A stretch of 64,000 nucleotides of DNA, taken from contig NZ_AWNK01000007.1 of NCBI RefSeq assembly GCF_000469585.1, positions 1 to 64,000 on the forward strand, in the 5' to 3' direction. The notes below the pieces were generated by a model that did no database searches, was not told the origin of the DNA, and saw only the letters and a list, made by a program, of their open reading frames with translations. A program made the translations under genes and the position numbers. Shown piece by piece: positions 12,171 to 48,621 of this stretch (within the stretch, counting starts at the first letter, position 1; every line of letters begins with the position of its first letter). This stretch comes from Chrysiogenes arsenatis DSM 11915. Lineage in GTDB: Bacteria; Chrysiogenota; Chrysiogenetes; Chrysiogenales; Chrysiogenaceae.

Positions 12171-12174
12171 TGCT

Positions 12175-16948: not shown

Positions 16949-16977
16949 TAGACAGTGGCGCTATTTTCTGTTTTAAT
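16949..16977 (+). promoter_or_regulatory. Candidate promoter of the Ig-repeat lipoprotein gene
   Basis: TAGACA (16949-16954) and TTTAAT (16972-16977) are separated by 17 bases, about 60 bases before the ATG at 17037. Confidence 0.5.
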
Positions 16978-17036
16978 GTGACTCTACATGCAGAGATATT
17001 CGCCGTTGAGATTTTCCCCGAGGAGGAATTTAGAGT

Positions 17037-19556
17037 ATGATCCGCCGTTATTTTATCAGTATTTTAGCCATTGCCCTGTTGATGTTGAGTTTTGGTTGCG
17101 GAGGTGGGGGCGGTGGAACCAGTAGCCGCGTCGAATCGGTTGCGCCGCTTGCCGCGACATCCACGACGTTGGTCGCCGACGGAAATAGTTACACTACCAT
17201 CACGGCCCTTGCTACCGACGCCAGTGGTAAACCGCTGCCCAATGCGGATGTGGAGTTTTCGACCACGCTAGGAACGCTCGAGGTGTACAACGTTCCGCCA
17301 ACCATTGGCGCCGTTGCAACGATAATGGCGGTAGGCTCAGCCCAAAAGGTCACGGCAAGAACCAATATGAACGGGAAAGCGGCGGTACGACTCTATCCTG
17401 GCCGCTCGACGGGCGTAGCAACGGTTACATCGTTTGTTAATGGGATTCAGCAACAGGTGAACGTTACTTTTCAAGCCGATCCCACTTACGTGCCACCTAG
17501 TACGGAAGAGCCCGTCGAAATAATCGACCTTGCGGCGCTCACGCTTACGGCACTGAATAACTCCATTGCGGCGAACGGTACCGATGTCGTTGCGATTGAT
17601 CTGAGTGCCAGTAACCGCCAGCAACAACCTATGAGTGGCGTGCCGATTACGGTCACTACGACCGCAGGTTCTCTGAGTAGAACAAGTGGTGGGGATACGG
17701 CAGAAACACTTCTCTTAGCTACTGGTACAAGTGGAATTGTGCGGTTCTATCTGCGTTCTGGCACACAGGCGACCACTGCTGCTGTTCATGCCACGGCAGG
17801 CGGAGTGAGCACCAGTACCACGGTGGCACTCGCTCCCGGTGCTCCCTTTGCGGCGACATCCTCCCTCATTGCGTCTCCTTCTGCATTACCTGCCAATGGG
17901 ACAGCAGAAACCGAGGTAACGGTTACTCTTCGCGACCAGTACAGTAATATTATTATGGATGGACGGGAAGTAACGCTTCAGGCGACAGCGGGAGTGATAA
18001 CGTCGCAAAACCCGATTGCAACGAGCTCCGGTCGTGCGACGTTTACCCTGCGTGCCCCATCGACCCCGAGCGAAGCGACGCTCTCGCTTATGCAATACCC
18101 GAGCATTAGTAGGACGATTACGTTTGGCTCTGTAAGCAGCAACGCTCCTGCCAATATAGAGATGTCTCTAGGAACGCCTAATTTGTATGTTGCCGGAGTT
18201 GGAAAATCGGACGCCACCAGTATTTCGCTCACCGTTCGCGATGCCGCTGGCAGTCCCATTGCTGATCCGGATGCTGGGGTGAATAACCTGCGTGTCGCTT
18301 TTCGCACGCACCCCGGGGCGCCGGAAACCCTCAGTGGAACCAGTGCTACTGGACTTACGGTGAGTAATGATTCTATCGAGGTGCGAACCAATGGAGGGGT
18401 GGCAACCATTACGCTGCAAGCCGGTACACTACCGGGTGTTGTTGAACTCGAAATAGAGGCTTTTGATGAATTTGGCAACCCTTTAAGTCCGCGTGTTCTG
18501 AATATCCTGCCACAAATTACTATTGCTTCTGGGCCGCCACATAGTATTGCGCTGAGCTATCCAGTCACCGGCTCTATTACAAACCTCGGCACGGGATTTT
18601 ACCGCCGTGCCGGTTCTGCTTCTGTTACCGATCGCTACGGCAACGCTGTGCCTGATGGTACGGCGATTAACCTTGGACTCCTTGATAGCGTGATCGCGTC
18701 CGGTAGTGATGGGGCAACCAGCGCAGCAAGCAATATACTCTCAGTTGGAACTACGGTACTCACTACCGCATCTGTGACCCGTAACGGGGTTTTGCGGTAT
18801 GTGCAAAGTAACGACCGTGTCTTGCTCTTTAATACTGTGGCATCGGACAAGAGCCGCTTTGTTGGTACAACGATAAGTGCTTCTCAAGTGTCGGTTAATA
18901 AAGCCTACCAGTCATCTGTGTCTGGAGTTGAGTATTTGATGGGAGCCTCATTGCTTGGAGGTCAAGTGCATGGTGTGAATGCTCAAACAGAAGCCATGGT
19001 AGCTGGTCATGCTACCGTTAAAGATGGATTAGCGCAGTTTTTTGTAACATATCCGGCTAATCAGCAGGCGATTAATGCTGGTTGCTACTATGGTAACCAC
19101 ACGGTCGATACACGACACCTCCCTGCGGGCTCTGCTCAGGTGTGGATTGTCGCCGAAGCGACCGATTCAGGAGCAACCACGATAGATAATCGCTTTTGCT
19201 TTGCGCCAGTCCTTGGTTATACACTTACTAACGAGAGTGGAATAACAACGATATCGACGAATAATGATACGACTGCTATTAATTTTTCTCTTGTCGATGG
19301 GAATGCAATTCCGCTTCCTTTCTTGACTATTTCACCGTTGGTTACGATTGTAACAAACACAGGGGCGTTTCAAGTGCAGGCCGTTCCCTGTACGACCGAC
19401 ACCAATGGACAATGTGCAATTTCGATTACTGTCACAGGTGGAACGTTGGGTGGTGCCATTGATGTTGGAGGCAATTTAGTGAAAGATAGTGCCGTAGTAA
19501 CGATAAGCGCGCCCGGTAATGCCACTCCTGTAGAGGTGCAGGTTGCCATCCCGTAA
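17037..19556 (+). CDS. Large Ig-like (Big_1/invasin-type) repeat lipoprotein
   Basis: An 839-residue predicted outer-surface lipoprotein. The signal peptide ends in a lipobox (LMLSFGC, Cys21) followed by a flexible Gly-rich linker. The body is a string of Ig-like bacterial domains: about 37-147, 164-266, 272-366 and 373-500, then two or three less regular domains to the end. Typical sub-motifs are TTITALATDASGKPLPNADVEFST, ANGTAETEVTVTLRDQYSNII and DRYGNAVPDGT. Cysteines occur only near the C terminus (GCYYGN, NRFCFAP, VPCTTDTNGQC). It follows system 1 with a separate promoter and an ideal GAGGAGG site. A role as adhesin or pilus-associated surface scaffold is inferred from fold and position. 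Confidence 0.82.
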   Translation: MIRRYFISILAIALLMLSFGCGGGGGGTSSRVESVAPLAATSTTLVADGNSYTTITALATDASGKPLPNADVEFSTTLGTLEVYNVPPTIGAVATIMAVGSAQKVTARTNMNGKAAVRLYPGRSTGVATVTSFVNGIQQQVNVTFQADPTYVPPSTEEPVEIIDLAALTLTALNNSIAANGTDVVAIDLSASNRQQQPMSGVPITVTTTAGSLSRTSGGDTAETLLLATGTSGIVRFYLRSGTQATTAAVHATAGGVSTSTTVALAPGAPFAATSSLIASPSALPANGTAETEVTVTLRDQYSNIIMDGREVTLQATAGVITSQNPIATSSGRATFTLRAPSTPSEATLSLMQYPSISRTITFGSVSSNAPANIEMSLGTPNLYVAGVGKSDATSISLTVRDAAGSPIADPDAGVNNLRVAFRTHPGAPETLSGTSATGLTVSNDSIEVRTNGGVATITLQAGTLPGVVELEIEAFDEFGNPLSPRVLNILPQITIASGPPHSIALSYPVTGSITNLGTGFYRRAGSASVTDRYGNAVPDGTAINLGLLDSVIASGSDGATSAASNILSVGTTVLTTASVTRNGVLRYVQSNDRVLLFNTVASDKSRFVGTTISASQVSVNKAYQSSVSGVEYLMGASLLGGQVHGVNAQTEAMVAGHATVKDGLAQFFVTYPANQQAINAGCYYGNHTVDTRHLPAGSAQVWIVAEATDSGATTIDNRFCFAPVLGYTLTNESGITTISTNNDTTAINFSLVDGNAIPLPFLTISPLVTIVTNTGAFQVQAVPCTTDTNGQCAISITVTGGTLGGAIDVGGNLVKDSAVVTISAPGNATPVEVQVAIP

Positions 19557-28790: not shown

Positions 28791-28861
28791 CATATTTTGC
28801 ATTCTGTTTTCTATTTGCGGCTGCGGTCGTGAATGCTAGAAGTTTCATCTGGGGAATGAAC

Positions 28862-29848
28862 ATGCTCTCTTCTCTCTTCAAAAAAACTTCCTCACAAAGC
28901 CCGACATTGCTGGGAATAGAGATTTCTCCGCAAGGGGTTGCTCTCGCCGAAATTGACCACAGCACAACACCTCATCGTCTGAGTCATTGCCAGTTTCACC
29001 CACTTGCCAAAGGGGAAAAAGCAGTTGATGTGCTCGCTAAACATGTCCAACAGCAGGCTCTTCAGCGCCATGCTTGTTCCGTTGTGCTTCACCCATCGCA
29101 ATACCAGTTGATTTTTGTTGACCGTCCAGAGGAAATCCCGAATGACGAACTGGCTGAAGCGCTTCGCTGGCGGATTAAGGATCTGATTCAAATGCCCGTG
29201 AACGAGGCCGTCATTGATTTTGTCTCGCTGCCTGATGATGCGTTTCGCGGCCGCATGCAGATGGTATACGTTGCTATTGCGCAACAGAAATTCATCCACG
29301 AAACGATAGAGATGATAAAGAATGTCGGGCTGGAGCTTCGTTATATTGACATAGCGGAAATGGCATTGCGAAACCTTGCTCTTCTCTTACCCGAACAAGA
29401 GCGCGGTTTCGGCATTATCCATATGGAAAGTGAAGGGGGCATGATTAACCTGATGGAGCGCGACGCCCTTTACTTGAGTCGCCGTGGCGAAAGCGGACTG
29501 CTTTCGCTGAAAAAAAAAGAGGAACCCGCTGCGCCAGAACCCGACTCTGCTTTTCCAGTTTTTGCTACGATGGCCACTGCCAACCCTGCCGACGCCCTAC
29601 TCCTTGAGCTGCAACGCTCACTTGACTATTACGAAAGTCAGCTTGGCAAGGGGGGAGTCGGTTCCTTGTACTTTACCCCTACCGACAGCGAGATCCCGAC
29701 ACAACACTTGAGCGAGCGGCTTGGACTGCCGGTCAGTGAGCTGAATCTCGGGGACTACCTTCAGATTTCGGATGACTGCCCGAAAGCGCTCCAGCAACAA
29801 TGTATCCGTGCTATCGGGGCGGCATTGCGCCGGAAGGAACCTTTATGA
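28862..29848 (+). CDS. mshI: System 2: MshI/PilM-like cytoplasmic actin-fold protein
   Basis: A 328-residue soluble protein of the PilM/MshI group that sits under the pilus inner-membrane complex. GIEISPQGVALAEI at the N terminus is the phosphate-1-like loop of the actin fold. The region ELAEALRWRIKDLIQMPVNEAVIDF is typical of MshI, and ELQRSLDYYESQ is near 255. The start at 28862 was chosen because GGGGA lies six bases ahead; an ATG six bases upstream is too close. It overlaps the next gene by ATGA and opens the operon. Confidence 0.82.
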   Translation: MLSSLFKKTSSQSPTLLGIEISPQGVALAEIDHSTTPHRLSHCQFHPLAKGEKAVDVLAKHVQQQALQRHACSVVLHPSQYQLIFVDRPEEIPNDELAEALRWRIKDLIQMPVNEAVIDFVSLPDDAFRGRMQMVYVAIAQQKFIHETIEMIKNVGLELRYIDIAEMALRNLALLLPEQERGFGIIHMESEGGMINLMERDALYLSRRGESGLLSLKKKEEPAAPEPDSAFPVFATMATANPADALLLELQRSLDYYESQLGKGGVGSLYFTPTDSEIPTQHLSERLGLPVSELNLGDYLQISDDCPKALQQQCIRAIGAALRRKEPL

Positions 29849-31181: not shown

Positions 31182-31529
31182 ATGAGGCAACATCCAGTAC
31201 TCTATCTCCTCATTTTTGTGCTGTTCGTAACCGTAAGTTATGGTTCAGTGCTGCTCGACCCAACGGAGCCACCCAAGGAATTCAAAGAGAGGCATTTTCC
31301 AGTGCTCAGTAGTGGTGACACGATCGAAGGCGATAATGCCGAACCTGTTGCTCCAGCTCAACGCGTCGGATTTGTTTTTTTCGGACATACTACCGTGGCA
31401 CTTATTGACGGAGTACGCTACCGCGTTGGCGATGTATATAACGAAAGCCGCATTCAAGACATTACCAAATCACAGATTATTTTGTTTGACCAAGGGGGAC
31501 AACGATGGGTCTTAGACGTTCAAAAATGA
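31182..31529 (+). CDS. mshK: System 2: MshK-like periplasmic connector
   Basis: A 115-residue exported protein: signal or anchor helix about 5-20, then LLDPTEPP, the MshK/GspB-like hallmark, and a short C-terminal beta domain (GVRYRVGDVYNESRIQDITKSQIIL) resembling PilP/GspC HR domains. It should link the inner-membrane subcomplex to the secretin encoded next. The start abuts the mshJ stop; the 3' end overlaps the secretin by 25 bases. Confidence 0.8.
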   Translation: MRQHPVLYLLIFVLFVTVSYGSVLLDPTEPPKEFKERHFPVLSSGDTIEGDNAEPVAPAQRVGFVFFGHTTVALIDGVRYRVGDVYNESRIQDITKSQIILFDQGGQRWVLDVQK

Positions 31530-33052
31530 AAATTGCTTGTGTCTGTATAGTGCTTGCTATCGTCACGGCCGGATGCGGTGCCTACCGTCCGGGCGGCGCT
31601 CCAGCGCAATTGCCAGCGGAACAACGCGGCACCATGCCGACATTGCTCAACTCCTTTGCCCAAACAGAACCAGCAGTACCACCAGCAGTTACGGAACTTC
31701 CGCCGTTAGTCATCCCGTCGCCGTACCAAGTCGTATCGCCGTTTGAAGGGGCGCCACCCGTTTCGATGAAAGTTTTTGACGCTCCCTTGCAGATGATTCT
31801 GACCACAATCACCGAAGATGCTGGATTTAATGTCGTCTATCATCGTGGTGTGCCGCAGGAGGCACCGATTTCCGTCTCGCTCGAAGAGGTTGATCTCGAA
31901 GAAGCCCTTGATATTATTATGGAACTCAGCGGTTGTTACTACAAATTGAACGGCCACACCATTCATGTCCATCACTATGAAACGCGCAGCTTTACCATTC
32001 CCTACCTGAAAACCCGTACCGGTTCGACCTCGCAACTTGGGGGCGATGTGCTTGGCGGAAGCGGTGCGGAAGCCGGTTCCCAAGGTACCCAGTATAAGGG
32101 AGAATTTTCCTTGACCTACAATAACCCTGAAGAAATGAACGATTTTTACCTGCACATTCAGAACAATATCCAGAGTTTACTATCGGATACCGAGGAAGGA
32201 CGTTTTGTGATGAACCGCTTTAGTGGCGTGGTCACTGTTACGGATAAGCGCGAAAACGTCAACCGAATTGCCAAAATGATCGAACAGGTTCTCGAACACT
32301 CCATGAAGCAAGTGCTGATCGAGGCACAAATTTTTGAGGTTATACTCAATGACAGCCATGCGCTCGGTATCGATTGGGAGCATATCTTTACTATAGGTGG
32401 TGGAACTACTTCGATAAAACAGTTAACTAGCACGGATATTTTTGGTGCGCTAGGTGGAAGTGTCGCTACGGGGGTAGTTCAGTATACACGGAATAATTTT
32501 GTGGGAATGCTTCAGCTTATGCGCAACGCGGGAGATATTGAGACTCTTTCAAATCCGCGCATCCGAGTTATGAATAGTCAAACGGCTCTGATTTCTTCTG
32601 GAAAAATTACTCCCTTCTGGTCAAAAGAAATCAGTTATGATGGGGAGGGCGATGCGAGAGTGACTCTCGAAACATTTACTCGTCGTGATGTCCTTGCTGG
32701 TCTTTCTATGGGTGTTACACCCGTTATTTCACAAGATGGTACGATCTTACTTAACATTATACCTGTGGCCACGAATTTCGAAAGGGTTGATGAACAGTAT
32801 GATGCGCAAAACAATTTGATTGTTTCCGCCCCTGTCATCAACATGAAAGAGGCGGGTACCATTATCCGCGTACGCGATAACGATATGGTCGTCATTGGTG
32901 GACTTATCTCGACAAATACCCGAAAAGAAGCACAAGAGGTCAGTGGACTCGCATCGCTGCCGCTGCTCGGTCATCTGTTCCGTGGCACTCGCGACGTGCA
33001 AGAGCGGCGTGAGCTGGTTATTTTCCTCAGAATTCGCTCCGTGGAGTTGTAA
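31505..33052 (+). CDS. mshL: System 2: MshL secretin lipoprotein
   Basis: Outer-membrane secretin of the MSHA-type pilus, 515 residues. The lipobox VTAGC (Cys24) ends the signal peptide. STN/N0 domain about 88-165 (VFDAPLQMILTTITEDAGFNVVYHR), Gly-rich linker near 180-195, N-domain to about 265, secretin core from about 265 (KQVLIEAQIFEVILNDSHALGIDWEH) to the end, with the signature SGLASLPLLGHLFRGTRD and LVIFLRIRSVEL. The ATG at 31505 follows AAGGGGGACAACG. Homologous to the system 1 secretin but clearly diverged. Confidence 0.92.
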   Translation: MGLRRSKMKIACVCIVLAIVTAGCGAYRPGGAPAQLPAEQRGTMPTLLNSFAQTEPAVPPAVTELPPLVIPSPYQVVSPFEGAPPVSMKVFDAPLQMILTTITEDAGFNVVYHRGVPQEAPISVSLEEVDLEEALDIIMELSGCYYKLNGHTIHVHHYETRSFTIPYLKTRTGSTSQLGGDVLGGSGAEAGSQGTQYKGEFSLTYNNPEEMNDFYLHIQNNIQSLLSDTEEGRFVMNRFSGVVTVTDKRENVNRIAKMIEQVLEHSMKQVLIEAQIFEVILNDSHALGIDWEHIFTIGGGTTSIKQLTSTDIFGALGGSVATGVVQYTRNNFVGMLQLMRNAGDIETLSNPRIRVMNSQTALISSGKITPFWSKEISYDGEGDARVTLETFTRRDVLAGLSMGVTPVISQDGTILLNIIPVATNFERVDEQYDAQNNLIVSAPVINMKEAGTIIRVRDNDMVVIGGLISTNTRKEAQEVSGLASLPLLGHLFRGTRDVQERRELVIFLRIRSVEL

Positions 33053-33055
33053 ACG

Positions 33056-33997
33056 ATGAACAAAAAAACTCTTCTCCCTATGTTAGCCATGTTGGCCGCC
33101 GCTACTGTAAGTTACGCAGGTAATACCACTTCCATACGTGGTATGAGCACCGCCGAATATCTGAACATGCGTACAGGGCCAGGTCCATCGTATCCCATCA
33201 GTGCCGTACTGACGAAAGCGCAAGAGGTCACTGTACACGAAAGCGTTCAAAGCCAGACAGGCTATCAGTGGTATCGCGTTACGGTGAACGAGCGCGAAGG
33301 GTATGTGTATGGTGCCCACCTGAAAGTGGAAAACATGATACCGTCTACCGCCCGAAAAGCCGAAACGGTAGCACCCGTGGCCGTGGCTCCCACGCCGCTA
33401 CCAACTGCTGTGCCACAACGTACTCTCACACCACGCCAGCGGATGCAGTTGATCGCCCAAGCCGATCGACTCTTTCAGGCAGGGCGCTATCACGAAAGCT
33501 TAGCGGTGCACGAAGACATTGCCGCGCACATGCAACCGACTCGGCAATTGCTGATTAACCGCGCTTACTTATACGGTAAGCTCTCTATGGAAGCACAGGC
33601 ACACACCTTTATTGCCGAAAATAAAACGAAAGCCATTTCCCTTGCCTATGCTTATGGTGTCGGGCATCTGGAAGAAAACCGCCCGGCCGACCAATTGCGC
33701 GACTTTCTGCTCGCCTATCTCACGCACGATCATCAAAGTTCCTTGACGTTCCTTCTCGGTGTACTCCACGAACGGCAAGGCGACCACGCCGCCGCGCTCA
33801 ACTGGTACGCACAAGCCAACCAGCGCCACCCCAATAATGCACACTATAGCTATGCCCTTGCGCGGATGCAGGAACTGGCTGGTAAAGCTGAAGAAGCACG
33901 CCAACACTACCGCGTCGTTACCCGCTCCAGCGATCAACAACTCGTGCGCTACGCGCAACAGCGGTTAGAGCACATTACCTTTCAGGGAGCATGGTAA
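33056..33997 (+). CDS. System 2: SH3b + TPR exported protein (MshN position)
   Basis: A 313-residue protein with a signal peptide (about 1-21, ending SYAG), a bacterial SH3 domain (about 28-95; AEYLNMRTGPGPSYPISAVL, WYRVTVNEREGYVYG), a Pro-rich linker (about 103-122) and C-terminal TPR repeats (about 130-305). The SH3b domain suggests peptidoglycan contact, and the TPR part a scaffold for secretin assembly. MshN in classical loci has TPRs but not usually this SH3b, so the fusion is a local feature. Confidence 0.8.
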   Translation: MNKKTLLPMLAMLAAATVSYAGNTTSIRGMSTAEYLNMRTGPGPSYPISAVLTKAQEVTVHESVQSQTGYQWYRVTVNEREGYVYGAHLKVENMIPSTARKAETVAPVAVAPTPLPTAVPQRTLTPRQRMQLIAQADRLFQAGRYHESLAVHEDIAAHMQPTRQLLINRAYLYGKLSMEAQAHTFIAENKTKAISLAYAYGVGHLEENRPADQLRDFLLAYLTHDHQSSLTFLLGVLHERQGDHAAALNWYAQANQRHPNNAHYSYALARMQELAGKAEEARQHYRVVTRSSDQQLVRYAQQRLEHITFQGAW

Positions 33998-35814
33998 TGT
34001 CAGGCCCCAGTCGTAAAATTCGTATTGGGGATATGCTGATCGAAGCTGGCTTGCTCTCGCAAGAACAGCTTATGCAAGCGCTTGACGAACAAAAAAAATC
34101 GGGAAAAAAACTTGGCCGCGTCCTGATTGATAGCGGCATGGTGCAAGAAGAAGCCTTTCTGCGCCTTCTCGCCGAAAAAGCCCATCTCCCGTTTGTAGAG
34201 CTGAAACACTACAAATTCAAAGAAGAGCAGTCGCAGAAAATGCCTGAAACACTGGCACGGCGCTATCGCAGCATTATTCTGACCGAGCGCCCCGATGGGA
34301 TCCTTGTCGGGATGGCTGACCCGATGGATATCTTTGCGATTGACGAAATGCAACGTGTGCTGCGCCGCCCCGTTTTTCCCGCCGTCGTACGCGAATCGGA
34401 ACTAAACACCGCTCTCAATACCATTTACCGTAACCAAGAAGACATTGTTTCGATAGCCGAAGAGCTGGAAAGCGAACTCAAAGGTACCACCGACTTTGAC
34501 CTCAGCGGCATTATGAGCAGTGGCAAAAATAAATCGTCAGAACTTCTGGTGGCGCGACTGCTGCAATCCATTCTGGAAGACGCCATTCAAGCCAAAGCCT
34601 CGGATATCCACATTGAACCGGACGAAAACATCCTGCGCATCCGCCACCGTATCGACGGTCATCTGCGCGAAAAAACTATGAAAAAGCAACGGATAGACGC
34701 CGCCCTTGTCATGCGTCTCAAAATTCTTTCCAACCTTGATATCTCGGAAAAGCGGATACCGCAAGATGGCCGCTTTAACATCAAAATAAAAGATCACGTG
34801 GTTGATGTGCGGGTTTCCACCCTTCCCAGCCAATACGGTGAAACCGTGGTGTTGCGACTGCTCGACCAATCGCAAGGGATATTACGGCTCGAAAAAATTG
34901 GTATGCAAGATGCTATGTTGGAACGCTTCCGTAACCTTATCCGCCGTCCCCACGGCATGATCCTTGTGACCGGCCCGACCGGCAGTGGGAAAACCACCAC
35001 CCTTTATGGTGCCATCAATGAGCTGAACACTCCGGAAGTCAAGATTATCACAGCTGAAGACCCGGTAGAATATCGCCTTCCGCGTATTACTCAATGTCAG
35101 ATCAATACGAAGGTTGGCCTTACCTTTGCCAAAGTCTTGCGTTCCTCACTCCGACAAGATCCCGATATTATTTTTGTCGGGGAAATGCGCGACCAAGAAA
35201 CCGCCGAAATCGGCTTGCGCGCCGCCTTGACCGGTCACTTGGTGCTTTCTACGCTGCATACAAACGATGCCGTGAGTACGGCGATGCGCCTGATCGACAT
35301 GGGTGCAGAACCCTTTTTAGTTGCGACTGCGCTGCGTGGTATTTTGGCACAACGGCTTATCCGCCGTATTTGTGAGAACTGCAAACAACCCCATCAACTG
35401 GAAAAACGTGAAAAATTATGGGTGGAATATCTGACAGGGAAACCGTTCGACGAAAATGCTCGGTTTTTCCGGGGGCGTGGCTGCGAATACTGCAATAACA
35501 CGGGCTACAGTGGCCGTATGGGTGTGTACGAGTTGCTTGAAATCAACGAAGTGCTTATGGATGCGCTGCGCAGTGAAGATGCTACTGCTTTTGGCAAAGC
35601 CGCAAAAAGCGACCCGCACTATCGGCCATTGGCACTGAGCGCCCTTGATGCCGCCAGCGAAGGGAAAACATCGCTGGACGAAGTATTTAAAATTTCTGCG
35701 TCACTTGACGATCGACCAGAAAAACTGGAGTTAGCCGTTGAAACGGAACCGACTCCGCCACCACTGGTGCTGGCACCAAATATTTCTGCCATGAGTCTCG
35801 ATAAAGGGATATAA
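33997..35814 (+). CDS. mshE: System 2: MshE-type pilus assembly ATPase with MshEN repeats
   Basis: Motor ATPase of 605 residues. The N terminus has two MshEN-like motifs, RIGDMLIEAGLLSQEQLMQA and KLGRVLIDSGMVQEEAFLRL, the type that binds c-di-GMP in Vibrio MshE. The core has Walker A GPTGSGKTTT (326-335), AEDPVE, Walker B DPDIIFVGEMRD, TLHTND, and a CENC...CEYC zinc site. The ATG at 33997 was chosen because GGGAG is seven bases ahead; the ATG at 33991 is too close. It starts one base before the end of the preceding gene. Confidence 0.93.
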   Translation: MSGPSRKIRIGDMLIEAGLLSQEQLMQALDEQKKSGKKLGRVLIDSGMVQEEAFLRLLAEKAHLPFVELKHYKFKEEQSQKMPETLARRYRSIILTERPDGILVGMADPMDIFAIDEMQRVLRRPVFPAVVRESELNTALNTIYRNQEDIVSIAEELESELKGTTDFDLSGIMSSGKNKSSELLVARLLQSILEDAIQAKASDIHIEPDENILRIRHRIDGHLREKTMKKQRIDAALVMRLKILSNLDISEKRIPQDGRFNIKIKDHVVDVRVSTLPSQYGETVVLRLLDQSQGILRLEKIGMQDAMLERFRNLIRRPHGMILVTGPTGSGKTTTLYGAINELNTPEVKIITAEDPVEYRLPRITQCQINTKVGLTFAKVLRSSLRQDPDIIFVGEMRDQETAEIGLRAALTGHLVLSTLHTNDAVSTAMRLIDMGAEPFLVATALRGILAQRLIRRICENCKQPHQLEKREKLWVEYLTGKPFDENARFFRGRGCEYCNNTGYSGRMGVYELLEINEVLMDALRSEDATAFGKAAKSDPHYRPLALSALDAASEGKTSLDEVFKISASLDDRPEKLELAVETEPTPPPLVLAPNISAMSLDKGI

Positions 35815-35817: not shown

Positions 35818-37071
35818 ATGCCAAGCTTTCAGTATAAAGGGCGCGATGCCAGCGGTAAACCAGTAAGCGGTGTGATGGATGCCAATAATGCCGACGATAT
35901 CGCTAGCGACCTCTTTGCGCAGGGGATCACTCCGATTACCATTACTCCCGCCAAAGGAGGCGGTAGCGGAGCGCAACGCGCCATGAAAGATGACGCCGAC
36001 TCCAAAGAGTCATTCTGGCAGAAACTGAATCAGCAACCTATCAGCTCTGACGATATCTTAATGTTTTGCCGTCAAATGTATGCGCTGATCAAAGCTGGTG
36101 TACCGCTGATGCGCACCCTGCATGGATTGGCTGACGCCTCCCCGAATAAAAGCATGCAGAAAGTTCTGGCAGACATTGCCAATCAGCTTGAATCAGGTAT
36201 GTCGCTTTCGGCTTGCCTGCAAAGTCATCCAAAGATTTTCCCGCCAATCACTGTCAATATGGTGTACATCGGCGAAAATACCGGGCAACTCGACCGTGCT
36301 TTTTTGCAAATCGCCGCCTTTTTAGAAATGGATAAAACCAATAAAAAACGGATTAAACAGGCAACCCGCTACCCGACTATTATTTGTACCGCCATGTTTT
36401 TAGCACTGACCGTTATTAACGTCTTTGTTATCCCCGCGTTTACGTCAGTATTTGCCAAACTTGGAAGCGACCTCCCCCTTGCCACCCGCTTTTTGATCGG
36501 CATGTCAGGGTTGTTTACCAATTACTGGTGGGCGATGATTATTACCGTGGTTGTATCCGTCATCGCCTATCGATCCTACAAGCGAACACCAAGCGGCGCA
36601 TTTAATGTTGACCGCTACAGCCTGAAGATGCCGCTGATCGGCAAAATTACGGAACTCATTATCCTTTCGCGTTTCTGCCGTACGCTGGCCATGATGCTCA
36701 GTTCCGGCGTCCCTGCCTTGCAGGCTCTTTCCGCCGTCGCCCGCTCGTTGGGGAACCTCTATATTGCGCAGTCCGTCGACGACATGCGGATGAGTATTGA
36801 AGGGGGCGAATCGCTCTCACGGAGCGCCGCCGCTACCGGACGCTTTTCGCCAATGGTATTGCAAATGCTGGCGGTAGGCGAAGAAACCGGTGCAACTGAT
36901 ACCATGCTGATCGAAACCGCCGATTTTTATGACCAACAAATTGAGTACGACCTCAAACGGCTCTCCGACGCGTTAGAACCGATTCTGCTTGTGTTTATGG
37001 GAGTGCTCGTGCTTATACTGGCGCTTGGCATATTTATGCCAATGTGGAGTATGGGCAGCGCGATGAAGTAA
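35818..37071 (+). CDS. mshG: System 2: MshG-type platform protein
   Basis: A 417-residue GspF-family inner-membrane platform. N-terminal PSFQYKGRDASGKPVSGVMDA is canonical. The two GspF repeats are MFCRQMYALIKAGVPLMRTL (about 82-101) and SRFCRTLAMMLSSGVPALQAL (about 283-303). Transmembrane segments lie near 185-210, 230-252 and 388-410, and VGEETGATDTML is present. It follows mshE by three bases. Confidence 0.93.
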   Translation: MPSFQYKGRDASGKPVSGVMDANNADDIASDLFAQGITPITITPAKGGGSGAQRAMKDDADSKESFWQKLNQQPISSDDILMFCRQMYALIKAGVPLMRTLHGLADASPNKSMQKVLADIANQLESGMSLSACLQSHPKIFPPITVNMVYIGENTGQLDRAFLQIAAFLEMDKTNKKRIKQATRYPTIICTAMFLALTVINVFVIPAFTSVFAKLGSDLPLATRFLIGMSGLFTNYWWAMIITVVVSVIAYRSYKRTPSGAFNVDRYSLKMPLIGKITELIILSRFCRTLAMMLSSGVPALQALSAVARSLGNLYIAQSVDDMRMSIEGGESLSRSAAATGRFSPMVLQMLAVGEETGATDTMLIETADFYDQQIEYDLKRLSDALEPILLVFMGVLVLILALGIFMPMWSMGSAMK

Positions 37072-37521: not shown

Positions 37522-37596
37522 AAGAGTTCGTATCCATTTATACACCAAAGGCGGTTTACCGCTCAAAAGCATACAATGCATAAAAAGGAATCCACA

Positions 37597-38031
37597 GTGC
37601 GCTCCAGAAAAGCCTTTACCATGCTGGAACTGGTTGTTGTGATTGTCATTCTTGGCATCCTTGCCGGTAGTGCAACTATGCTCTGGCCGGGGCGTGATCT
37701 AGAAGTTGGCGCCTATTCCGAGCGGCTCGTCAGCGATATCCGGTATGTGCAATTGCGTACCATGACCTGTGAAACCTGCAGCGAAGGGGCATTTGTTATC
37801 AGTGGTAATAGTTACGCGTTTACGCTTGATGGCGTTGCCGAATCCTTTGCCGATGGCGACACCACACGTAATCTAGGCAGCAAAGGTTTTGTTTTGTCTG
37901 GTAGTAATATCATTTTTGATAATGAATTTGGTGTTCCCAACATTGTAACTCACGCCACCATGATCCTTTCCGGAACCACCATTTGTATTTACGCACAAAC
38001 TGGCCATGCTGAGGTGGGTGCATGCGAGTAA
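37597..38031 (+). CDS. System 2: minor prepilin (MshC-position), Ala at the cleavage site
   Basis: A 144-residue prepilin: RSRKA^FTMLELVVVIVILGILAGSATML. Glu5 is present, but the residue before the cleavage site is Ala rather than the near-universal Gly. The GTG start at 37597 is favoured by AAGGA seven bases ahead; an ATG at 37576 has no such site. Two close cysteines (CETC) and a pair in the C-terminal part (TICIY, GACE) could form disulphides. It is the first of five prepilin-like genes. Confidence 0.8.
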   Translation: MRSRKAFTMLELVVVIVILGILAGSATMLWPGRDLEVGAYSERLVSDIRYVQLRTMTCETCSEGAFVISGNSYAFTLDGVAESFADGDTTRNLGSKGFVLSGSNIIFDNEFGVPNIVTHATMILSGTTICIYAQTGHAEVGACE

Positions 38032-38399
38032 CCAAAGGTTTTTCGCTGATTGAAATGATAGTATTTATTGTGGTAATCGGCATCGCCGCCACGGGATTGC
38101 TTGGTGTGTTCGCACCAGTGTTGCTGGGCGCCCCTACCAGTGGTGATATTTTGCGCCGCACCTACCTTGCTATGGAACGTGTCGAGCTGATGTATGCCTA
38201 TGCCAGACAGGATAGTTTCGATGAATGGTGTGCGACTGGCGGTGCACCGTGTTCTAGCACTGCGTACACAGTTACCCACCTGATTGATTCTGGCGACTAT
38301 CTCGGGAGCAACCCCGTGTACCACATCACGGTGAATGTTTCAGACGGGGTCGATGCTATGAACTTTGTATTTGAAAACGTCTACCTTGTCAGCGAGTAA
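38022..38399 (+). CDS. System 2: minor prepilin (MshD-like)
   Basis: A 125-residue prepilin with a six-residue leader: RVTKG^FSLIEMIVFIVVIGIAATGLLGVF, Glu5 in place. AMERVELMYAYAR in the extended helix resembles MshD. It overlaps the previous prepilin by ten bases; the ribosome site is GAGGTGGG. Likely a component of the tip or initiation complex. Confidence 0.85.
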   Translation: MRVTKGFSLIEMIVFIVVIGIAATGLLGVFAPVLLGAPTSGDILRRTYLAMERVELMYAYARQDSFDEWCATGGAPCSSTAYTVTHLIDSGDYLGSNPVYHITVNVSDGVDAMNFVFENVYLVSE

Positions 38400-38403: not shown

Positions 38404-38931
38404 ATGAAAAATGCTCGTGGCTTTACTTTTCTCGAACTGATCTTGACTCTTACCATCATGGGGATACTTTTTGCAGCGTCAGCACCACTGGTAAGCAGCA
38501 GTCTTGACGCCTACCTAACCGCACGGGACATGAGTGCTGATTTAATCGAAGTAAACCTTGCGATGGAGCGGATGAGCCGTGAAATTCGTGACGCACAGGC
38601 TATCCACAGCGGGAGTACTGCAACACAAATTGGCTTTACCCGTAGCGATGGCATCAGTGCCTGTTTTGCTGCCGACAATAACCGCATTGTCCGTTATACT
38701 GACGATGAATGTACCGCCAACGCAACGCCGCTGACGGGTGCAATGTTAGTCAATGGAGCGACTCCGTTTCAGTATTTTTCAGTTTCAGGGTCGTGTACGG
38801 CGCTTGTGAGCGCAGCTAGTATCAGTAATGATACGCATATTGTAACGATAACGCTTGATGGAACAAATACCGGCGCACCATTTCGTACCTCCGTGTACGT
38901 TCGTAAAGACGATAATTCATGTATGAACTAA
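38404..38931 (+). CDS. System 2: minor prepilin (MshO-like)
   Basis: A 175-residue prepilin: NARG^FTFLELILTLTIMGILFAAS with Glu5. The helix continues AMERMSREIRDAQAI, the MshO/PilW-type pattern. Four cysteines lie in the globular region (ISACFAA, DDECTA, SGSCTAL, DNSCMN). The ATG at 38404 is four bases after the previous stop; an upstream in-frame start lies in the neighbour. Confidence 0.85.
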   Translation: MKNARGFTFLELILTLTIMGILFAASAPLVSSSLDAYLTARDMSADLIEVNLAMERMSREIRDAQAIHSGSTATQIGFTRSDGISACFAADNNRIVRYTDDECTANATPLTGAMLVNGATPFQYFSVSGSCTALVSAASISNDTHIVTITLDGTNTGAPFRTSVYVRKDDNSCMN

Positions 38932-38954: not shown

Positions 38955-41174
38955 ATGCGTGCCCTGAAAAGTAAGAACCAACGTGGATCACTGTTAATTA
39001 TCGCGATCTTTTTGATAACCGTTGTTGCTGCAATGGGGATAGCCGTGACGTCGCTATTTTCCAATACCAGCCGTGGTGGCTTTGATACAGACCGTTCAAC
39101 GCAAGGTATGAGCTATAACCGCTATGGCGCGCTCGATAATCCCGGTGTTATTAGTCCCGAAGAATCGAACTATGCCTACGATGCGACGGCTCCCGTAGCA
39201 CCGGGCGACGCGCCAATTTCCCCGAGTGATCCGAGTGTAGTTGCGTTTACAGATCAGCTCTGGAATTTCAAAGGTGGTGGCGACAACCATGCCGCCCTGA
39301 GTGATGATGGGACAACTGTTGCCTTTGGTGCAGCCGGTACTTCTTCAAACCATACGACGAAAGAAGCCTTGACACTTTGTAATGTTGATGGGCAACAAGT
39401 GTTCCTAGGCTTTGCTTGGGAAGTGAAAATTAAAGAAAAAGGCAATGGCAAGAAAATACCAAAACTTAGTTTAACGATTGAAGTCACGGGGACTGATGCT
39501 AACCTGCCTAAGTCATTTACTATTGCTGATCAAGAAGATGGAGCGAGTGGCACTTTTTCTGAAAGCCTTGGGGTATTTAACCCTGCGAATGCTGGGGTGA
39601 ATGTCTCTATCTCTGTAACAGGCGAGGATGCGGGTGGCGTCAAAGATAACGATTTCATAGTGAAAAACCTCTTCATCGGCCCTACGGGTGGATGCAGCGA
39701 AGGTGCCACCATGATTCAAACCATTACCGACATTGAAGGCAATGTCTCGCTGATTGTCGGTGATACCGAAGAGAGCAACCAAACCTACAGCGCCGTTGCC
39801 GCTTGCGCATGGATTGACCGCCCCTTTCTTGTCGGACGTAGTGCATACGACCAGTTCCGTGCCTTTTTCCGTTTTCAAATCTACCGAGGCGATGTCACCG
39901 AGGGGGGCTTCACTCTCACCTTGCTCCCGCAAAATCAATCAATTCAGAATAATGATGGTTCCCACATTTGCGGCAGTGCCGGAACCAACGGCCAAAACCT
40001 TGGCTATCTTGGCCTTGCCGATAGTACCGAAGGGAAAATCGCCATCGAATTTGATTTGCACTCTTTGGGTAACAACGACCCTGCGGGGAATCACGTAGCA
40101 CTTTTGGTTGGCAACAGTGTAACGCACGGGAGCGGCGCGACGCCAGCTTGCGCGAGTAGCAATGGCACGGACTGTCTGATCGGTAATACGGCTTGGCTAG
40201 AAACAGAAACTACTAACATTCCGGATGAATATAGCGCCCGTGTGGAGCTGCTTCGCGAAACTGGGTGCAGTCATAACGGCACTACAGGCGATGCGCGCAT
40301 TACGGTAGCGGTGTGTAGCCCAGGGGGAACGTGTCAGGCCAGTGACTCGGTGTTCTCTAATCTGCGCATCCCCTATAGCGGTGGCAATACCGGTGTCACA
40401 CAGTTTAGCCGCTGCTTGACATTGCCCAGCGGTGCCGATTTTTCTGCCGTAAGGCCGGGCTTTACCGTTGGGTTTGGTCAGGAGTCTTTTGCGCTCGTGA
40501 TCAGTGAAATGAAGCTTACTCCACCCGCCCACACGGTCAGCCATTGGCCGTTCAATCCAAATAATCGTGGCAGCGGTACGGCGGTCAGTGCGACTTTCAG
40601 CGACGATGTTCCAACTATCGAAACTGGGGAATCACTGGCGGGAGGCTATTTTCAGCTTGATAATTCTGGGTTGCTCACTATTGATACCGACGACTTTACC
40701 CTGATGGCGTGGGTGAAGCTTCCTGCGAGTAATTCCACACAACGGGTATTACTGGGCAAAGGGGGAATTGATGATCCCGGTTATTCGCTGTATCTGGACA
40801 CACAAGATTATGTTGTGTTTCAGGTTCGTGCGAGTGACGGCATTGTCCGCTCTATTCGGTCGCAACGTCCGCTTACTACGGGGCAATGGGAGCACGTGGC
40901 GGCTGTGCTGGAGCGGGATGCAAGTACGACGTGGCAGATGCGGCTTTACCATAACGCTGAACGACAAGCGTTGGGAGTGCGGGTAAACCAAAATGTTGAT
41001 TTGCTCAGCAAAAGCCTTGCTGGCGCATCAATTTTTGCAATTGGCGGGTATCATAATGGAGTCACAACGGCGTACGCGGCCTTCCCAGGTCTTTTGATTG
41101 ATGAGGTTTGGTTTTATCCGGACATAGTTCTGACCGACGGAAATATTATTAACCGCTACAATACCCAGCAATAA
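38955..41174 (+). CDS. System 2: giant MshP/MshQ-like prepilin-headed protein with L-type-lectin-like and LamG-like domains
   Basis: A 739-residue protein. It begins with an MshP/PilX-type membrane helix (QRG^SLLIIAIFLITVVAAMGIAV, no Glu5). After a linker and a beta-rich domain (about 95-245), residues of about 270-520 show features of an L-type lectin beta-sandwich (GYLGLADSTEGKIAIEFDL, NNDPAGNHVALLVG, FTVGFGQESFALVISEM). Residues of about 530-735 look like a LamG/concanavalin-type domain (FTLMAWVKLP, GYSLYLDTQDYVVFQV, TGQWEHVAAVL, LLIDEVWFYPD). The design suggests a carbohydrate-binding tip adhesin. Start ATG at 38955 behind GAGGGG. Domain calls are by eye. Confidence 0.78.
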   Translation: MRALKSKNQRGSLLIIAIFLITVVAAMGIAVTSLFSNTSRGGFDTDRSTQGMSYNRYGALDNPGVISPEESNYAYDATAPVAPGDAPISPSDPSVVAFTDQLWNFKGGGDNHAALSDDGTTVAFGAAGTSSNHTTKEALTLCNVDGQQVFLGFAWEVKIKEKGNGKKIPKLSLTIEVTGTDANLPKSFTIADQEDGASGTFSESLGVFNPANAGVNVSISVTGEDAGGVKDNDFIVKNLFIGPTGGCSEGATMIQTITDIEGNVSLIVGDTEESNQTYSAVAACAWIDRPFLVGRSAYDQFRAFFRFQIYRGDVTEGGFTLTLLPQNQSIQNNDGSHICGSAGTNGQNLGYLGLADSTEGKIAIEFDLHSLGNNDPAGNHVALLVGNSVTHGSGATPACASSNGTDCLIGNTAWLETETTNIPDEYSARVELLRETGCSHNGTTGDARITVAVCSPGGTCQASDSVFSNLRIPYSGGNTGVTQFSRCLTLPSGADFSAVRPGFTVGFGQESFALVISEMKLTPPAHTVSHWPFNPNNRGSGTAVSATFSDDVPTIETGESLAGGYFQLDNSGLLTIDTDDFTLMAWVKLPASNSTQRVLLGKGGIDDPGYSLYLDTQDYVVFQVRASDGIVRSIRSQRPLTTGQWEHVAAVLERDASTTWQMRLYHNAERQALGVRVNQNVDLLSKSLAGASIFAIGGYHNGVTTAYAAFPGLLIDEVWFYPDIVLTDGNIINRYNTQQ

Positions 41175-41192: not shown

Positions 41193-43319
41193 ATGAAGTT
41201 CAAACATCAAAGCGGTTCACTCTTGGTGGTGGCGATTTTTTTGATTGTGGTGGTTGCTGCGCTGGGAATTGCTATCACTTCTGTTTTTACAAATACCAGT
41301 AAAGGCGGAGTCGATACACTGAGTGCAACGCTGGATCAGGTGAAGAAGCGCTATCCCGCATTTCCGGATAGTGAAATTCCGAATGTGCCAGGTGAGGAAG
41401 AGCCACCGCCATCACCAATTGGTGGGCCGACGCTGCAACTGACGCAGGGGAAGTCTTCGGGAACTTTCACTATTACAAGTAGTAATAAAATAAATGGCAA
41501 TGCCGCAGGGCACGATATTGTAACGAATGGATCGGGTGTAGAGATAACAGGGGGCATAACGGCAACAGGGAAAGTAACTCTCGGGAGTGCAACCAAGATT
41601 GGTAAAAACATATGTGCTATCGGCTTGGTAGATATGAATAATGGCGCGGTAGTTGGGGGCGACATTCATTCACATGGTTCGTCAGTTACGGTTGGATCAA
41701 GTTCTGCAACGGTCAAGGGTAATATATATTCTGCTGGCAATGTGACTTTAGGGTCTAATGTGCAACTCGAAGAAGGCACTGACATTCATGCCGCTGGGAA
41801 TGTGACGCTCGCGAGTGGAGTAATTCTGGTTGGCTCTATTTACGCGGGTGGTAGTGTTGAGTTTAAATCATCAAATGTTCGTGTTACTGGTGATGTGCAT
41901 GCAAACGGTGGTGGGGTAACTTTTGGCTGGAATACAGCCATTATTGGCGACGTGGTAGCTAACGGGGTTATCTCAAATACTTCATCAAGCATTACGGGTG
42001 ATGCCTTTGCCGCACAGAGTATAGGATCTAATGTGAATGTCAGCGGCACTAAGCACCCCAATACACCACCATCATCACTACCCCTTATTGCTCCAACTCC
42101 ACCAGAAGCATGCCCTGAAATGTGCATACCCGAACACGCAACTTTCACTGCAGGAGGAAGCAATTATCCCGCACAATGGCAAACAGATAGAACGCTTACA
42201 GAGGGTAGCTATGGAGATGTAGGGGTCGGTGGAGAAAGCAAGCTTTATCTTAGCGCTGGTAACTATTGGTTTAATAGAATAAATGCTAATAATAACTTAG
42301 CATCAATGTACCTCGACATTTCTAGCGGTGACATCAATATTTTCGTTGTTAATGATGCAGTATTTGGTAGCTCGTTTAATGTATTTGTTAAGGTGGACAA
42401 TGATTCAGAGTATGAAAAGATAGTGGATGCAGGTCGCCATATTAAGGCATCCCTAGCACCTTATGCTGAACGGGTATATATGGAGACTCATGGAAATGTC
42501 ACATTTAATAATGAAAATAGTTGGTTTGGGACAATTTTTAGTAAGGGAAATATTAGGTTTGGTAATGAAAATAGACTTGTCGGGGCGTACATTTCATCGG
42601 AGGGGACAGTAACAACTTGGAACGGTATGCAGGTTCATTTCGTTCCATCAAATTACGGTTCTGAAAACTGGACATTCACCTGTAGTTCGCAAGGAGAAGG
42701 TGGAAATGGTGGTGAGTCGGGTGGTTCTGTCGCAGCACTTCAGCTTTTGCTGGATACCCAAGAGTTTACCGGCACAAATCAGATTGTCTTTGAGCCTGCA
42801 GCAAAGGGTGATCTTGATACACTTGACGATATGACGCTGGCGCTGTGGCTATCCCCTACGAGTTTTGGTCAGGTGCAGGCAGTTGTTTCTAAAGGAGGCA
42901 TGGACGGAGAAGTTGGGTATACGCTCTTGATTGACAGTGAAGGGTATCTTGTTTTCCAAGTGCAGACGCCAGCGTTCGTACGCTCGATTCGGTCTGATAT
43001 TCCACTGTCCGCTGGACAGTGGCACCACGTGGCAGCAGTGCTTGATCGAAATACTGTTGACACAGTAATTCCCTTTCAAATGCGCCTTTACGTCAATAAA
43101 GTCATTCAAAATGGCCTGAAAGTGCACTCGGATAGTACCGTGACGAGTGCAAGCCTTTCCAATAGTTTGCTTTTGACTGTGGGAGCACATAATGCCAGCC
43201 CGAGCGTGTACGCCCACTACTTTATTGGTCAATTAGGCAATGGTGCACTGTATCCGCAAGTGTTGACCAACAGCAACATCGCGTATTTGTATGAGTCGCA
43301 GAAAATTGGCTACGAATAA
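41193..43319 (+). CDS. System 2: second giant prepilin-headed protein with beta-solenoid and LamG-like domains
   Basis: A 708-residue paralogue of the preceding gene: the N-terminal helix (QSG^SLLVVAIFLIVVVAALGIAI) and LamG-like C terminus (about 515-705; GYTLLIDSEGYLVFQV, AGQWHHVAAVLDRN) match, but the middle is different. Residues of about 80-285 are short Gly/Val/Asn repeats (VGGDIHSHGSSVTVG, VKGNIYSAGNVTLG, GDVHANGGGVTFG) of a right-handed beta-solenoid. Residues of about 310-490 resemble a DUF7305/PilX-associated domain (LSAGNYWFNRI, WFGTIFSKGNIRFGNENRLVGAYIS). The 3' half is visibly more AT-rich than neighbours. Likely a surface-exposed tip or shaft subunit. Confidence 0.75.
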   Translation: MKFKHQSGSLLVVAIFLIVVVAALGIAITSVFTNTSKGGVDTLSATLDQVKKRYPAFPDSEIPNVPGEEEPPPSPIGGPTLQLTQGKSSGTFTITSSNKINGNAAGHDIVTNGSGVEITGGITATGKVTLGSATKIGKNICAIGLVDMNNGAVVGGDIHSHGSSVTVGSSSATVKGNIYSAGNVTLGSNVQLEEGTDIHAAGNVTLASGVILVGSIYAGGSVEFKSSNVRVTGDVHANGGGVTFGWNTAIIGDVVANGVISNTSSSITGDAFAAQSIGSNVNVSGTKHPNTPPSSLPLIAPTPPEACPEMCIPEHATFTAGGSNYPAQWQTDRTLTEGSYGDVGVGGESKLYLSAGNYWFNRINANNNLASMYLDISSGDINIFVVNDAVFGSSFNVFVKVDNDSEYEKIVDAGRHIKASLAPYAERVYMETHGNVTFNNENSWFGTIFSKGNIRFGNENRLVGAYISSEGTVTTWNGMQVHFVPSNYGSENWTFTCSSQGEGGNGGESGGSVAALQLLLDTQEFTGTNQIVFEPAAKGDLDTLDDMTLALWLSPTSFGQVQAVVSKGGMDGEVGYTLLIDSEGYLVFQVQTPAFVRSIRSDIPLSAGQWHHVAAVLDRNTVDTVIPFQMRLYVNKVIQNGLKVHSDSTVTSASLSNSLLLTVGAHNASPSVYAHYFIGQLGNGALYPQVLTNSNIAYLYESQKIGYE

Positions 43320-43482: not shown

Positions 43483-43938
43483 ATGAAACAGCAAATGGAA
43501 GAGTTGAAGAACAAGAAACGTCAAAAGGGTTTTACGCTGATTGAATTGATCATGGTTATTGTGATCTTGGGTATTTTGGCGGCTGTGGCTGTACCACAGT
43601 TTGTGGACTTAGGAAGTGATGCAAAAACATCAGTTCTCGAAGGTACAGCGGCTGCAATGAAATCAACTAACAGTATGATTCATGCTAAAGCTCGTGTTCA
43701 AAGTAAAATGGCTGCAACAGGCGATACGGTAGAGGTTAATAGTTCTACAATTAGTCTAGCATACGGCTATGCAAGTAATGCTGGAGAACTCGCAAAAGCT
43801 ATGGATCTTTCAGGTTTAGACACTAACGAAGCTTGGATTGGCTACGCAACTCCAGCCGATTGCAGAGTCAATTATACTGCTGCGGCATCAGCGGGCGCAG
43901 TGCCGACCGTAACGGTAGTATCAACGGGTTGCAACTAA
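43483..43938 (+). CDS. mshA: System 2: major pilin MshA
   Basis: A 151-residue type IV prepilin with 16-residue leader, cut at KRQKG^FTLIELIMVIVILGILAAVAVPQFVDLGSDAK; the PQFVDLGSDAK continuation is the MshA hallmark. Mature length is about 135. Two cysteines near the end (DCRVNY, TGCN) would form the D-region disulphide. ATG at 43483 behind GGAGGAG. The gene has its own leader and is followed by a strong terminator, as expected for an abundant subunit. Composition is more AT-rich than the assembly genes. Confidence 0.93.
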   Translation: MKQQMEELKNKKRQKGFTLIELIMVIVILGILAAVAVPQFVDLGSDAKTSVLEGTAAAMKSTNSMIHAKARVQSKMAATGDTVEVNSSTISLAYGYASNAGELAKAMDLSGLDTNEAWIGYATPADCRVNYTAAASAGAVPTVTVVSTGCN

Positions 43939-46452: not shown

Positions 46453-47487
46453 ATGGATATCACCGAATTGCTGGCGTTTAGTGTGAAAAGTGGTGCATCA
46501 GATTTACACCTTTCGGCAGGGCTTCCACCCATGATTCGCGTTGATGGTGATGTGCGGCGTATCAATGTTCCTGCGCTTGACCATAAAGAGACGCACACGT
46601 TGTTGTTCGATATTATGAACGACAAGCAGCGCCGCGATTACGAAGAGAAGCTGGAAGCTGATTTTTCTTTTGAAATTCAGGGGCTTGCTCGTTTTCGCGT
46701 GAATGCCTTCCATCACAACCGTGGTGCTGGTGCTGTTTTCCGCACTATTCCTTCGACGGTTCTTACCCTTGAACAACTCAATTGCCCACAGATTTTCCGT
46801 GAAATAGCTGATAACCCCCGCGGGATTGTTTTAGTAACGGGTCCGACCGGATCTGGGAAATCGACTACGCTTGCTGCGATGATCGATTATAAAAACAACA
46901 GTGAATATGGGCATATCTTGACGATTGAAGACCCCATTGAATTTGTTCATGAAAGTAAAAAATGCCTTGTCAACCAACGCGAAGTGCACCGCGATACGCA
47001 CAGTTTTGCTGACGCTCTCCGTTCTGCTTTGCGGGAAGACCCTGATGTCATCCTTGTCGGTGAAATGCGCGATCTGGAAACCATCCGTCTTGCTTTAACC
47101 GCTGCTGAAACCGGACATCTTGTTTTCGGCACGCTTCACACAAGCTCGGCAGCGAAAACTATTGACCGTATTGTCGATGTATTCCCGGCGGCGGAAAAGA
47201 GTATGGTTCGTTCGATGCTTTCTGAATCGCTGCGTGCGGTCATTTCGCAAGCGCTGTTGAAGAAAACTGGCGGAGGACGGGTTGCTGCACACGAAATCAT
47301 GTTGGGAACTCCGGCTATTCGCAACCTGATTCGCGAAGATAAAGTGCCGCAAATGTATTCCACGATCCAAACCGGCCAGGCGGTAGGGATGCAGACGTTG
47401 GATCAGTGCTTGACGGGGCTTGTTCAAAAAGGGATCGTGACAAAAGCCGAAGCACGCCTGAAAGCGGCGCATAAAGATAGCTTTTAA
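46453..47487 (+). CDS. pilT: Twitching motility / pilus retraction ATPase
   Basis: Hexameric retraction motor, 344 residues. N-terminal SGASDLHLSAGLPPMIRVDG; Walker A GPTGSGKST (about 129-137); IEDPIE; Walker B DPDVILVGEMRD; LHTSSAAKTIDRI; and the PilT-specific AIRNLIRE motif (about 280) needed for retraction. Ribosome site AGGAGGCTCAC. It is separate from both pilus operons, so it could serve either. Confidence 0.95.
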   Translation: MDITELLAFSVKSGASDLHLSAGLPPMIRVDGDVRRINVPALDHKETHTLLFDIMNDKQRRDYEEKLEADFSFEIQGLARFRVNAFHHNRGAGAVFRTIPSTVLTLEQLNCPQIFREIADNPRGIVLVTGPTGSGKSTTLAAMIDYKNNSEYGHILTIEDPIEFVHESKKCLVNQREVHRDTHSFADALRSALREDPDVILVGEMRDLETIRLALTAAETGHLVFGTLHTSSAAKTIDRIVDVFPAAEKSMVRSMLSESLRAVISQALLKKTGGGRVAAHEIMLGTPAIRNLIREDKVPQMYSTIQTGQAVGMQTLDQCLTGLVQKGIVTKAEARLKAAHKDSF

Positions 47488-47499
47488 GGAGATACTTCA

Positions 47500-48621
47500 A
47501 TGGAATTCAACGAACTCCTGCGATACATGGTTGAACACAACGGTTCCGACATGTTCATCACCAGCGAAGCGCCGCCAAGCGTTAAAGTCAGTGGGCAACT
47601 GAAACAAGTATCAGCAACGCCCCTGACGGCGGAGCAGTCGCAGGCGCTGGCCTATGCCATCATGTCGCCCGCCCAGATTACCGAGTTTGAAAGTACACAC
47701 GAATGTAACTTTGCGATTGCCAGGGACGGCATCGGGCGTTTTCGCATCAACGTCTTTAAGCAGCGCAATAGCGTTGGATTGGTGGTTCGGAAAATCGAAA
47801 CGCAAATCCCTTCATTTGATACGCTTAATCTGCCGCCTATATTGAAAGAAGTGGCGATGACGAAACGGGGGATTGTGCTGTTTGTTGGTGGTACTGGCTC
47901 GGGGAAATCAACGTCGTTAGCGGCTATGATCGACTATCGTAATACCAATAGTAGCGGCCATATCGTTACGATTGAAGACCCGATAGAGTTTGTCCATCAG
48001 CACAAGGGGTGCATTATCACGCAGCGCGAAGTGGGCATTGATACCGATACGTTCGAAAGCGCGCTTGTCAATACGTTACGTCAGGCGCCGGATGTCATCC
48101 TGATTGGGGAAATCCGTCATCGCGAAACGATGGAACATGCGGTAGCTTTTGCCGAAACCGGTCACCTGTGTCTTGCTACCCTTCACGCGAACAATGCGAA
48201 TCAGGCACTTGACCGGATTATCAACTTTTTCCCCGAAGAGCGCCGGAGTCAATTGTTGATGGACTTATCGCTGAACCTCAAAAGTGTTATTGCGCAACGT
48301 CTGGTTCCCCATGTTTCGGGTAAAGGGCGCCGTGCGGCAATTGAAATTTTACTCAACACGCCGCTGATGGCGGATCTGATCCATAAAGGGGAAGTGCATC
48401 AAATTAAAGAGTTGATGAAGAAATCGGCAGAGCATGGAATGCAAACCTTTGATCAGGCTGTTTTTAACCTTCACAGAGATGGAGAGATTTCTCTTGAAGA
48501 AGCGCTGCGTAATGCCGATTCGCCCAATGAAGTGCGCTTGATGGTCAAACTTCATGAAAGCTCACAAAAGCAAGGTGGATCGTCGAGCGGTGGAATGAGC
48601 TTTTCGCTGGAAAGCACGTAG
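47500..48621 (+). CDS. pilU: PilT-dependent retraction ATPase PilU
   Basis: A 373-residue PilT paralogue. N-terminal NGSDMFITSEAPPSVKVSGQ; Walker A GGTGSGKST (variant with GG in place of GP, about 129-137); IEDPIEF; APDVILIGEIRHRETME; ATLHANNANQALDRI; a PilU-type C-terminal tail (QKQGGSSSGGMSFSLEST). NTPLMADLIHKGEV replaces the PilT AIRNLIRE motif. It lies 12 bases after pilT with its own AAGGAGA site. Confidence 0.93.
   Translation: MEFNELLRYMVEHNGSDMFITSEAPPSVKVSGQLKQVSATPLTAEQSQALAYAIMSPAQITEFESTHECNFAIARDGIGRFRINVFKQRNSVGLVVRKIETQIPSFDTLNLPPILKEVAMTKRGIVLFVGGTGSGKSTSLAAMIDYRNTNSSGHIVTIEDPIEFVHQHKGCIITQREVGIDTDTFESALVNTLRQAPDVILIGEIRHRETMEHAVAFAETGHLCLATLHANNANQALDRIINFFPEERRSQLLMDLSLNLKSVIAQRLVPHVSGKGRRAAIEILLNTPLMADLIHKGEVHQIKELMKKSAEHGMQTFDQAVFNLHRDGEISLEEALRNADSPNEVRLMVKLHESSQKQGGSSSGGMSFSLEST

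Follow-up and report, generated by a model that had tools for sequence, protein, structure and literature searches.

In Streptococcus sanguinis, the modular pilin PilC binds sialylated glycans through a ConA-like module (PMC9934059), and Laminin_G_3 (PF13385) is among the 15 commonest extra domains of modular pilins (PMC8179133). In tip complexes, the capping subunit is one that lacks Glu5 (PMC10191384). For MSHA-type pili, the original prediction considered the adhesin poorly defined, which holds only in part, given that MshQ is a putative adhesin of the Vibrio cholerae MSHA pilus (PMC7096442). Here we describe P0001 (38955..41174, plus strand), a modular Glu5-less prepilin of 739 amino acids encoded in a stretch of 64,000 nucleotides from Chrysiogenes arsenatis DSM 11915 (the window). 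P0001 resembles S. sanguinis PilC, a minor pilin that ends in a ConA-like module and is thought to be located at the tip, and both systems have two modular pilins, which in S. sanguinis are PilB and PilC (PMC9934059). PilC differs in that it comes from a monoderm, is a canonical Glu5 pilin and has a single ConA-like module, placed behind an Ig-like module (PMC9934059), whereas P0001 combines a Glu5-less K-type carrier, a diderm MSHA-like system and two different ConA-like modules. We favour, with moderate confidence, the interpretation that P0001 is a tip-capping minor pilin of the GspK/MshP type, the lectin-like and LamG head of which would bind a surface ligand for adhesion.

The P0001 reading frame starts with an ATG at 38955, is preceded by GGCGAGGGGA with a Shine-Dalgarno-like GAGGGGA (a good ribosome-binding site) and stops at 41174; both this frame and the legume-lectin strings quoted in the original prediction were found as described. 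The N-terminus (38955..39050; sequence and hydropathy) shows the hallmark of type IV prepilins, a short leader up to a Gly followed by about 20 hydrophobic residues (MRALKSKNQRG/SLLIIAIFLITVVAAMGIAVT, the slash marking the predicted cut). The leader is basic, of class III type and ends in Gly, and the membrane helix spans residues 12-32, with a 19-residue Kyte-Doolittle mean of up to 3.0. Mature position 5 is Ile instead of Glu, and no match to N_methyl (PF07963) was obtained at E<=1 in a Pfam scan; this is what one would expect of a K-type cap, as such caps lack Glu5 (PMC10191384), but it places P0001 outside surveys built on the N_methyl profile. As anticipated for a GspK/MshP-style helix, P0001 shares with GspK, PilK and MshP the lack of Glu5, the place after the H, I and J subunits and a large head; it is unlike them in that T2SSK and PilX_N gave no Pfam match at E<=1 and in that its head is made of lectin-like modules. 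Behind the helix follow a domain without a Pfam match that is conserved in the orthologue of G002, a genome of the same family as the host (residues about 95-250, 39237..39704), an L-type-lectin-like domain (residues about 281-525, 39795..40529) and a Laminin_G_3 domain (residues 563-723, 40641..41123), all on the plus strand. The last of these, predicted as LamG-like, scored 65.1 bits in the Pfam scan (cut-off 27.6, E=1.1e-17). An AlphaFold2 model of the lectin region from the single sequence had a pLDDT of 30 and was not used.

The L-type-lectin-like domain was delimited with the Pfam model Lectin_legB and with family-profile searches of the PDB. Lectin_legB matched residues 299-389 of P0001 with E=7e-4 and 19.6-21.7 bits (gathering score 26.3), the lectin part of a truncated relative in genome G001, scanned alone, with E=7.5e-6 and 26.1 bits against the same cut-off, and another relative with 28.7 bits, above it. 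A PDB search with P0001 alone gave nothing meaningful, and a match to a sugar kinase, obtained in a single-sequence search with the G001 copy, was rejected as chance. The top PDB match of a profile of three relatives was peanut lectin (E=0.095); with six sequences in the profile, all five matches at E<=1 were legume lectins, as were 30 of 30 for the 11-sequence family profile searched against the whole PDB (best E=7.2e-4). As judged by these sequence comparisons, the resemblance of the P0001 strings to legume lectins is more than chance: every PDB match of the family profile at E<=1 is a legume lectin, although P0001 on its own stays below the Pfam cut-off.

Shared features of the family and the legume lectins (Lectin_legB) are the EFD...DP..NH metal loop, an LG strand and a terminal GFT strand. 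In the 11-sequence alignment, residues E365, D367, D375 and H380 in the metal-site loop EFDLHSLGNNDPAGNH of P0001 (40047..40094, plus strand) align with E121, D123, D132 and H137 of peanut lectin, which we take, ligand identity in plant lectins being textbook knowledge, to be the metal ligands of that protein. This Glu/Asp/Asp/His quartet is kept in all 11 aligned family members. Unlike legume lectins, the family lacks the loop-A Asp and the loop-C Asn of the sugar site, has extra conserved cysteines and is fused to pilins. The loop-A Asp is absent in 11/11: position 317, the residue preceding the Gly of the GFT strand, aligns with the Asp of ADGFTF in pea lectin and is G, G, G, F, L, L, F, M, E, Y and G in the 11 sequences. 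With the metal quartet kept and the loop-A Asp missing, the fold and the metal site are well supported and the sugar site is not. Of the proposed candidacy as a tip adhesin, the anatomy thus proved right and the role plausible, while carbohydrate binding by P0001 was not established. An alternative that we consider unlikely, yet the most serious of those weighed here, is that P0001 is a cap with the same folds and a non-lectin function, binding protein or mineral or providing spacers around a structural metal site. ConA-like folds are often structural, and the loss of both the sugar Asp and the loop-C Asn would fit such a function; however, the metal quartet, invariant here, gives the sugar site of legume lectins its shape, and the G002 orthologue has retained the lectin-like domain despite an insert of about 185 residues within it. 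The lifestyle of the likely host, an arsenate-respiring, free-living bacterium that came from mine mud, also counts towards a non-lectin function (PMC3828317).

The MSHA-like context of P0001 that had been assumed was borne out by a cluster extending from 28.8 to 43.9 kb of the window, the genes listed here with coordinates all lying on the plus strand and being assigned by profile matches. The cluster begins with a gene for an MshI/PilM-like protein (28829..29848), followed by a gene for a 233-aa protein in the PilN position and a T2SSM-like gene. The best specific family for the secretin (31505..33052) was MshL (TIGR02519), though its 214 bits are below the cut-off of 250.2. A TPR/SH3 protein occupies the MshN position between this secretin and an MshE-like extension ATPase with the Pfam domains T2SSE and MshEN (33991..35814), and an MshG/GspF-like platform protein follows (35818..37071). 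Next come three minor prepilins with Glu5, a GspH-like one (37576..38031), one in the I position (38022..38399) and one in the J/MshO position (38404..38931), and directly after them, in the "K" position, P0001 and a second modular prepilin, P0002. A probable major pilin, also with Glu5, is encoded at 43483..43938, two PilT/PilU-family retraction ATPases are encoded downstream (46453..48621), and a prepilin peptidase is encoded elsewhere in the genome. No separate small MshP was seen in the cluster. Only two of its six prepilins lack Glu5, namely P0001 (Ile) and P0002 (Val), and their operon position is consistent with a tip cap. A secretion function, in which P0001 would cap a T2SS-like pseudopilus rather than a retractable adhesion pilus and its head would recognise secreted substrates, appears improbable: a tip location in T2SS pseudopili has been proposed for GspK (PMC8179133) and GspE/GspF/T2SSM-type matches do occur in the cluster, but the best secretin family is MshL, the ATPase carries MshEN, the probable major pilin is separate and the two PilT/PilU genes lie 2.5 kb downstream. 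The window also contains a second MSHA/T2SS-like cluster (6910-19556) with a secretin scoring 242 bits to MshL (cut-off 250.2), an MshEN ATPase and GspF, as well as a Glu5-less prepilin of its own (14610-15554) and a Big_1/Invasin_D3 lipoprotein (17037-19556).

For P0001 as a tip-cap adhesin, which we regard as likely, the following sequence of events can be proposed. The prepilin peptidase would cut off the 11-residue leader, and the helix would pack together with the minor pilins H, I and J, whose genes directly precede that of P0001, into a complex that starts the MSHA-like pilus. As a cap without Glu5 has no subunit above it, the head of 700 residues would be exposed at the tip, where the metal-binding lectin-like beta-sandwich and the LamG beta-sandwich may recognise a ligand on a surface, a glycan or polysaccharide being the most likely one. 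Extension of the pilus and its retraction by PilT/PilU would then turn ligand binding by the head into adhesion. P0002, with the same N-terminus, a LamG domain and another middle module, may serve as an alternative cap.

The original prediction described the anatomy of P0001 correctly and overlooked this adjacent gene. P0002 (41193..43319, plus strand) encodes 708 amino acids, has a good ribosome-binding site and starts 18 bp after the stop of P0001. Its Laminin_G_3 domain covers residues 539-697 (42807-43283, E=3.8e-16), and its middle part is beta-helix/DUF7305-like; the orthologue of P0002 matches DUF7305 and Bactofilin. In G001 and G002 the gene order after the J pilin is the same, and each genome has exactly one Glu5-less cap, which is of the lectin type in G002 (L010:8149-11031) and of the beta-helix type in G001 (L012:13899-15983). 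That each type occurs alone in one species suggests that the caps may be interchangeable. The N-terminus of P0001 is near-identical to those of P0002 and of both relatives. We consider it very improbable that P0001 is an uncleaved, inner-membrane-anchored periplasmic protein unrelated to the filament, as the missing N_methyl, T2SSK and PilX_N matches might suggest, against which stand the leader pattern Q-[RSK]-G/SLL common to the four proteins, the constant position of these proteins behind the J pilin across three genomes and the prepilin peptidase of the genome. As to swapping of the LamG module between the paralogues, the tree does not decide (AU 0.37 vs 0.63). Several further features were observed in the related genomes. 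The insert of about 185 additional residues in the G002 orthologue falls within a lectin-domain loop and had no Pfam match and only chance matches in the PDB. G001 contains a fragment of the lectin/LamG type without the pilin part (L011:11874-14374), which adjoins a Y1-type transposase gene. In both G002 (L010:11998-13158) and G001 (L012:11723-12808), the H prepilin is separated from the I prepilin by a lipoprotein-like gene that is not present in the cluster of P0001; the G001 copy has a weak match to the Ig-like Invasin_D3.

A family-profile search found the lectin-like family in 12 of 51 genomes of the phylum, with one gene in each. When the Pfam model was used to look for relatives, it picked up prepilins from another family within the phylum, and these were confirmed by an independent profile of three relatives (E=1.5e-7; hhalign probability 95.5). 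The nine copies outside the family of the host (L024, L025, L026, L042, L043, L044, L045, L046 and L047) are canonical class III prepilins with Glu5; they are about 640-720 aa long and end in the lectin-like domain. Among the six that were scanned, N_methyl scored above the cut-off in five and below it in one, and LamG had no match. They belong to the same lectin-like family as P0001 and share its metal quartet, and are unlike it in having a canonical GFTLxELAIV carrier and in being encoded outside a pilus-machinery operon: mostly they adjoin another prepilin of about 335 aa, far from the pilus machinery, in a neighbourhood that is conserved in most. One copy (L043:6704-8752 in G034) has a single in-frame TAA within the lectin region. 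Across the 12 copies surveyed, all lectin-like domains detected in this phylum were thus on pilins, except for the truncated G001 fragment, and on two types of pilin carrier; the domain looks like a reusable adhesive part shared between pilus subunit types. A search of 330 genomes of two other phyla, made with the lectin profile and including no positive control there, gave no match, and no relative turned up in two scans of named genomes.

Other candidate adhesins of the phylum were also considered. DUF6701, which we take to be the signature of MshQ, had no match in P0001 in the Pfam scan, which ruled out P0001 as a plain MshP-MshQ fusion. Neither the PilY1 nor the DUF6701 profile matched in the host genome, whereas both matched in other genomes of the phylum, DUF6701 in eight of them. 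The DUF6701 proteins of the phylum are large and have Laminin_G_3 in common with P0001; they are not prepilins, in contrast to P0001, which is of prepilin type and has no DUF6701. Proteins combining DUF6701 and Laminin_G_3 (L053, L054 and L055, one also with H_lectin) were present only in families without lectin pilins, and DUF6701 and a lectin pilin were found together in none of the 51 genomes, a pattern that follows families (Fisher p=0.10); given this p-value and the confounding by ancestry, mutual exclusion is only suggestive. It is possible, and we propose it tentatively, that the tandem genes encode exchangeable caps for alternative tips of one MSHA-like pilus and that their lectin-like family, detected in this phylum on pilins only, replaces MshQ/PilY1. 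A further LamG match (L013; G000:C22:395433-395702) falls within an open frame of 6106 aa, probably a giant surface adhesin.

Modular adhesive pilins were already known, and P0001 adds to them a Glu5-less capping carrier and the combination, within a single chain, of two ConA-like modules from different families; also new are the tandem second cap P0002 and the occurrence of the same lectin-like family on two pilin carriers. Modular pilins are thereby extended to a capping subunit that is invisible to surveys relying on the N_methyl signature, and within one phylum a single lectin-like family has been grafted onto two different pilin carriers. Adhesion by MSHA-type pili is poorly defined, and in the system described here the role of adhesin seems to fall to the capping subunit itself, which makes the question testable with one gene pair.
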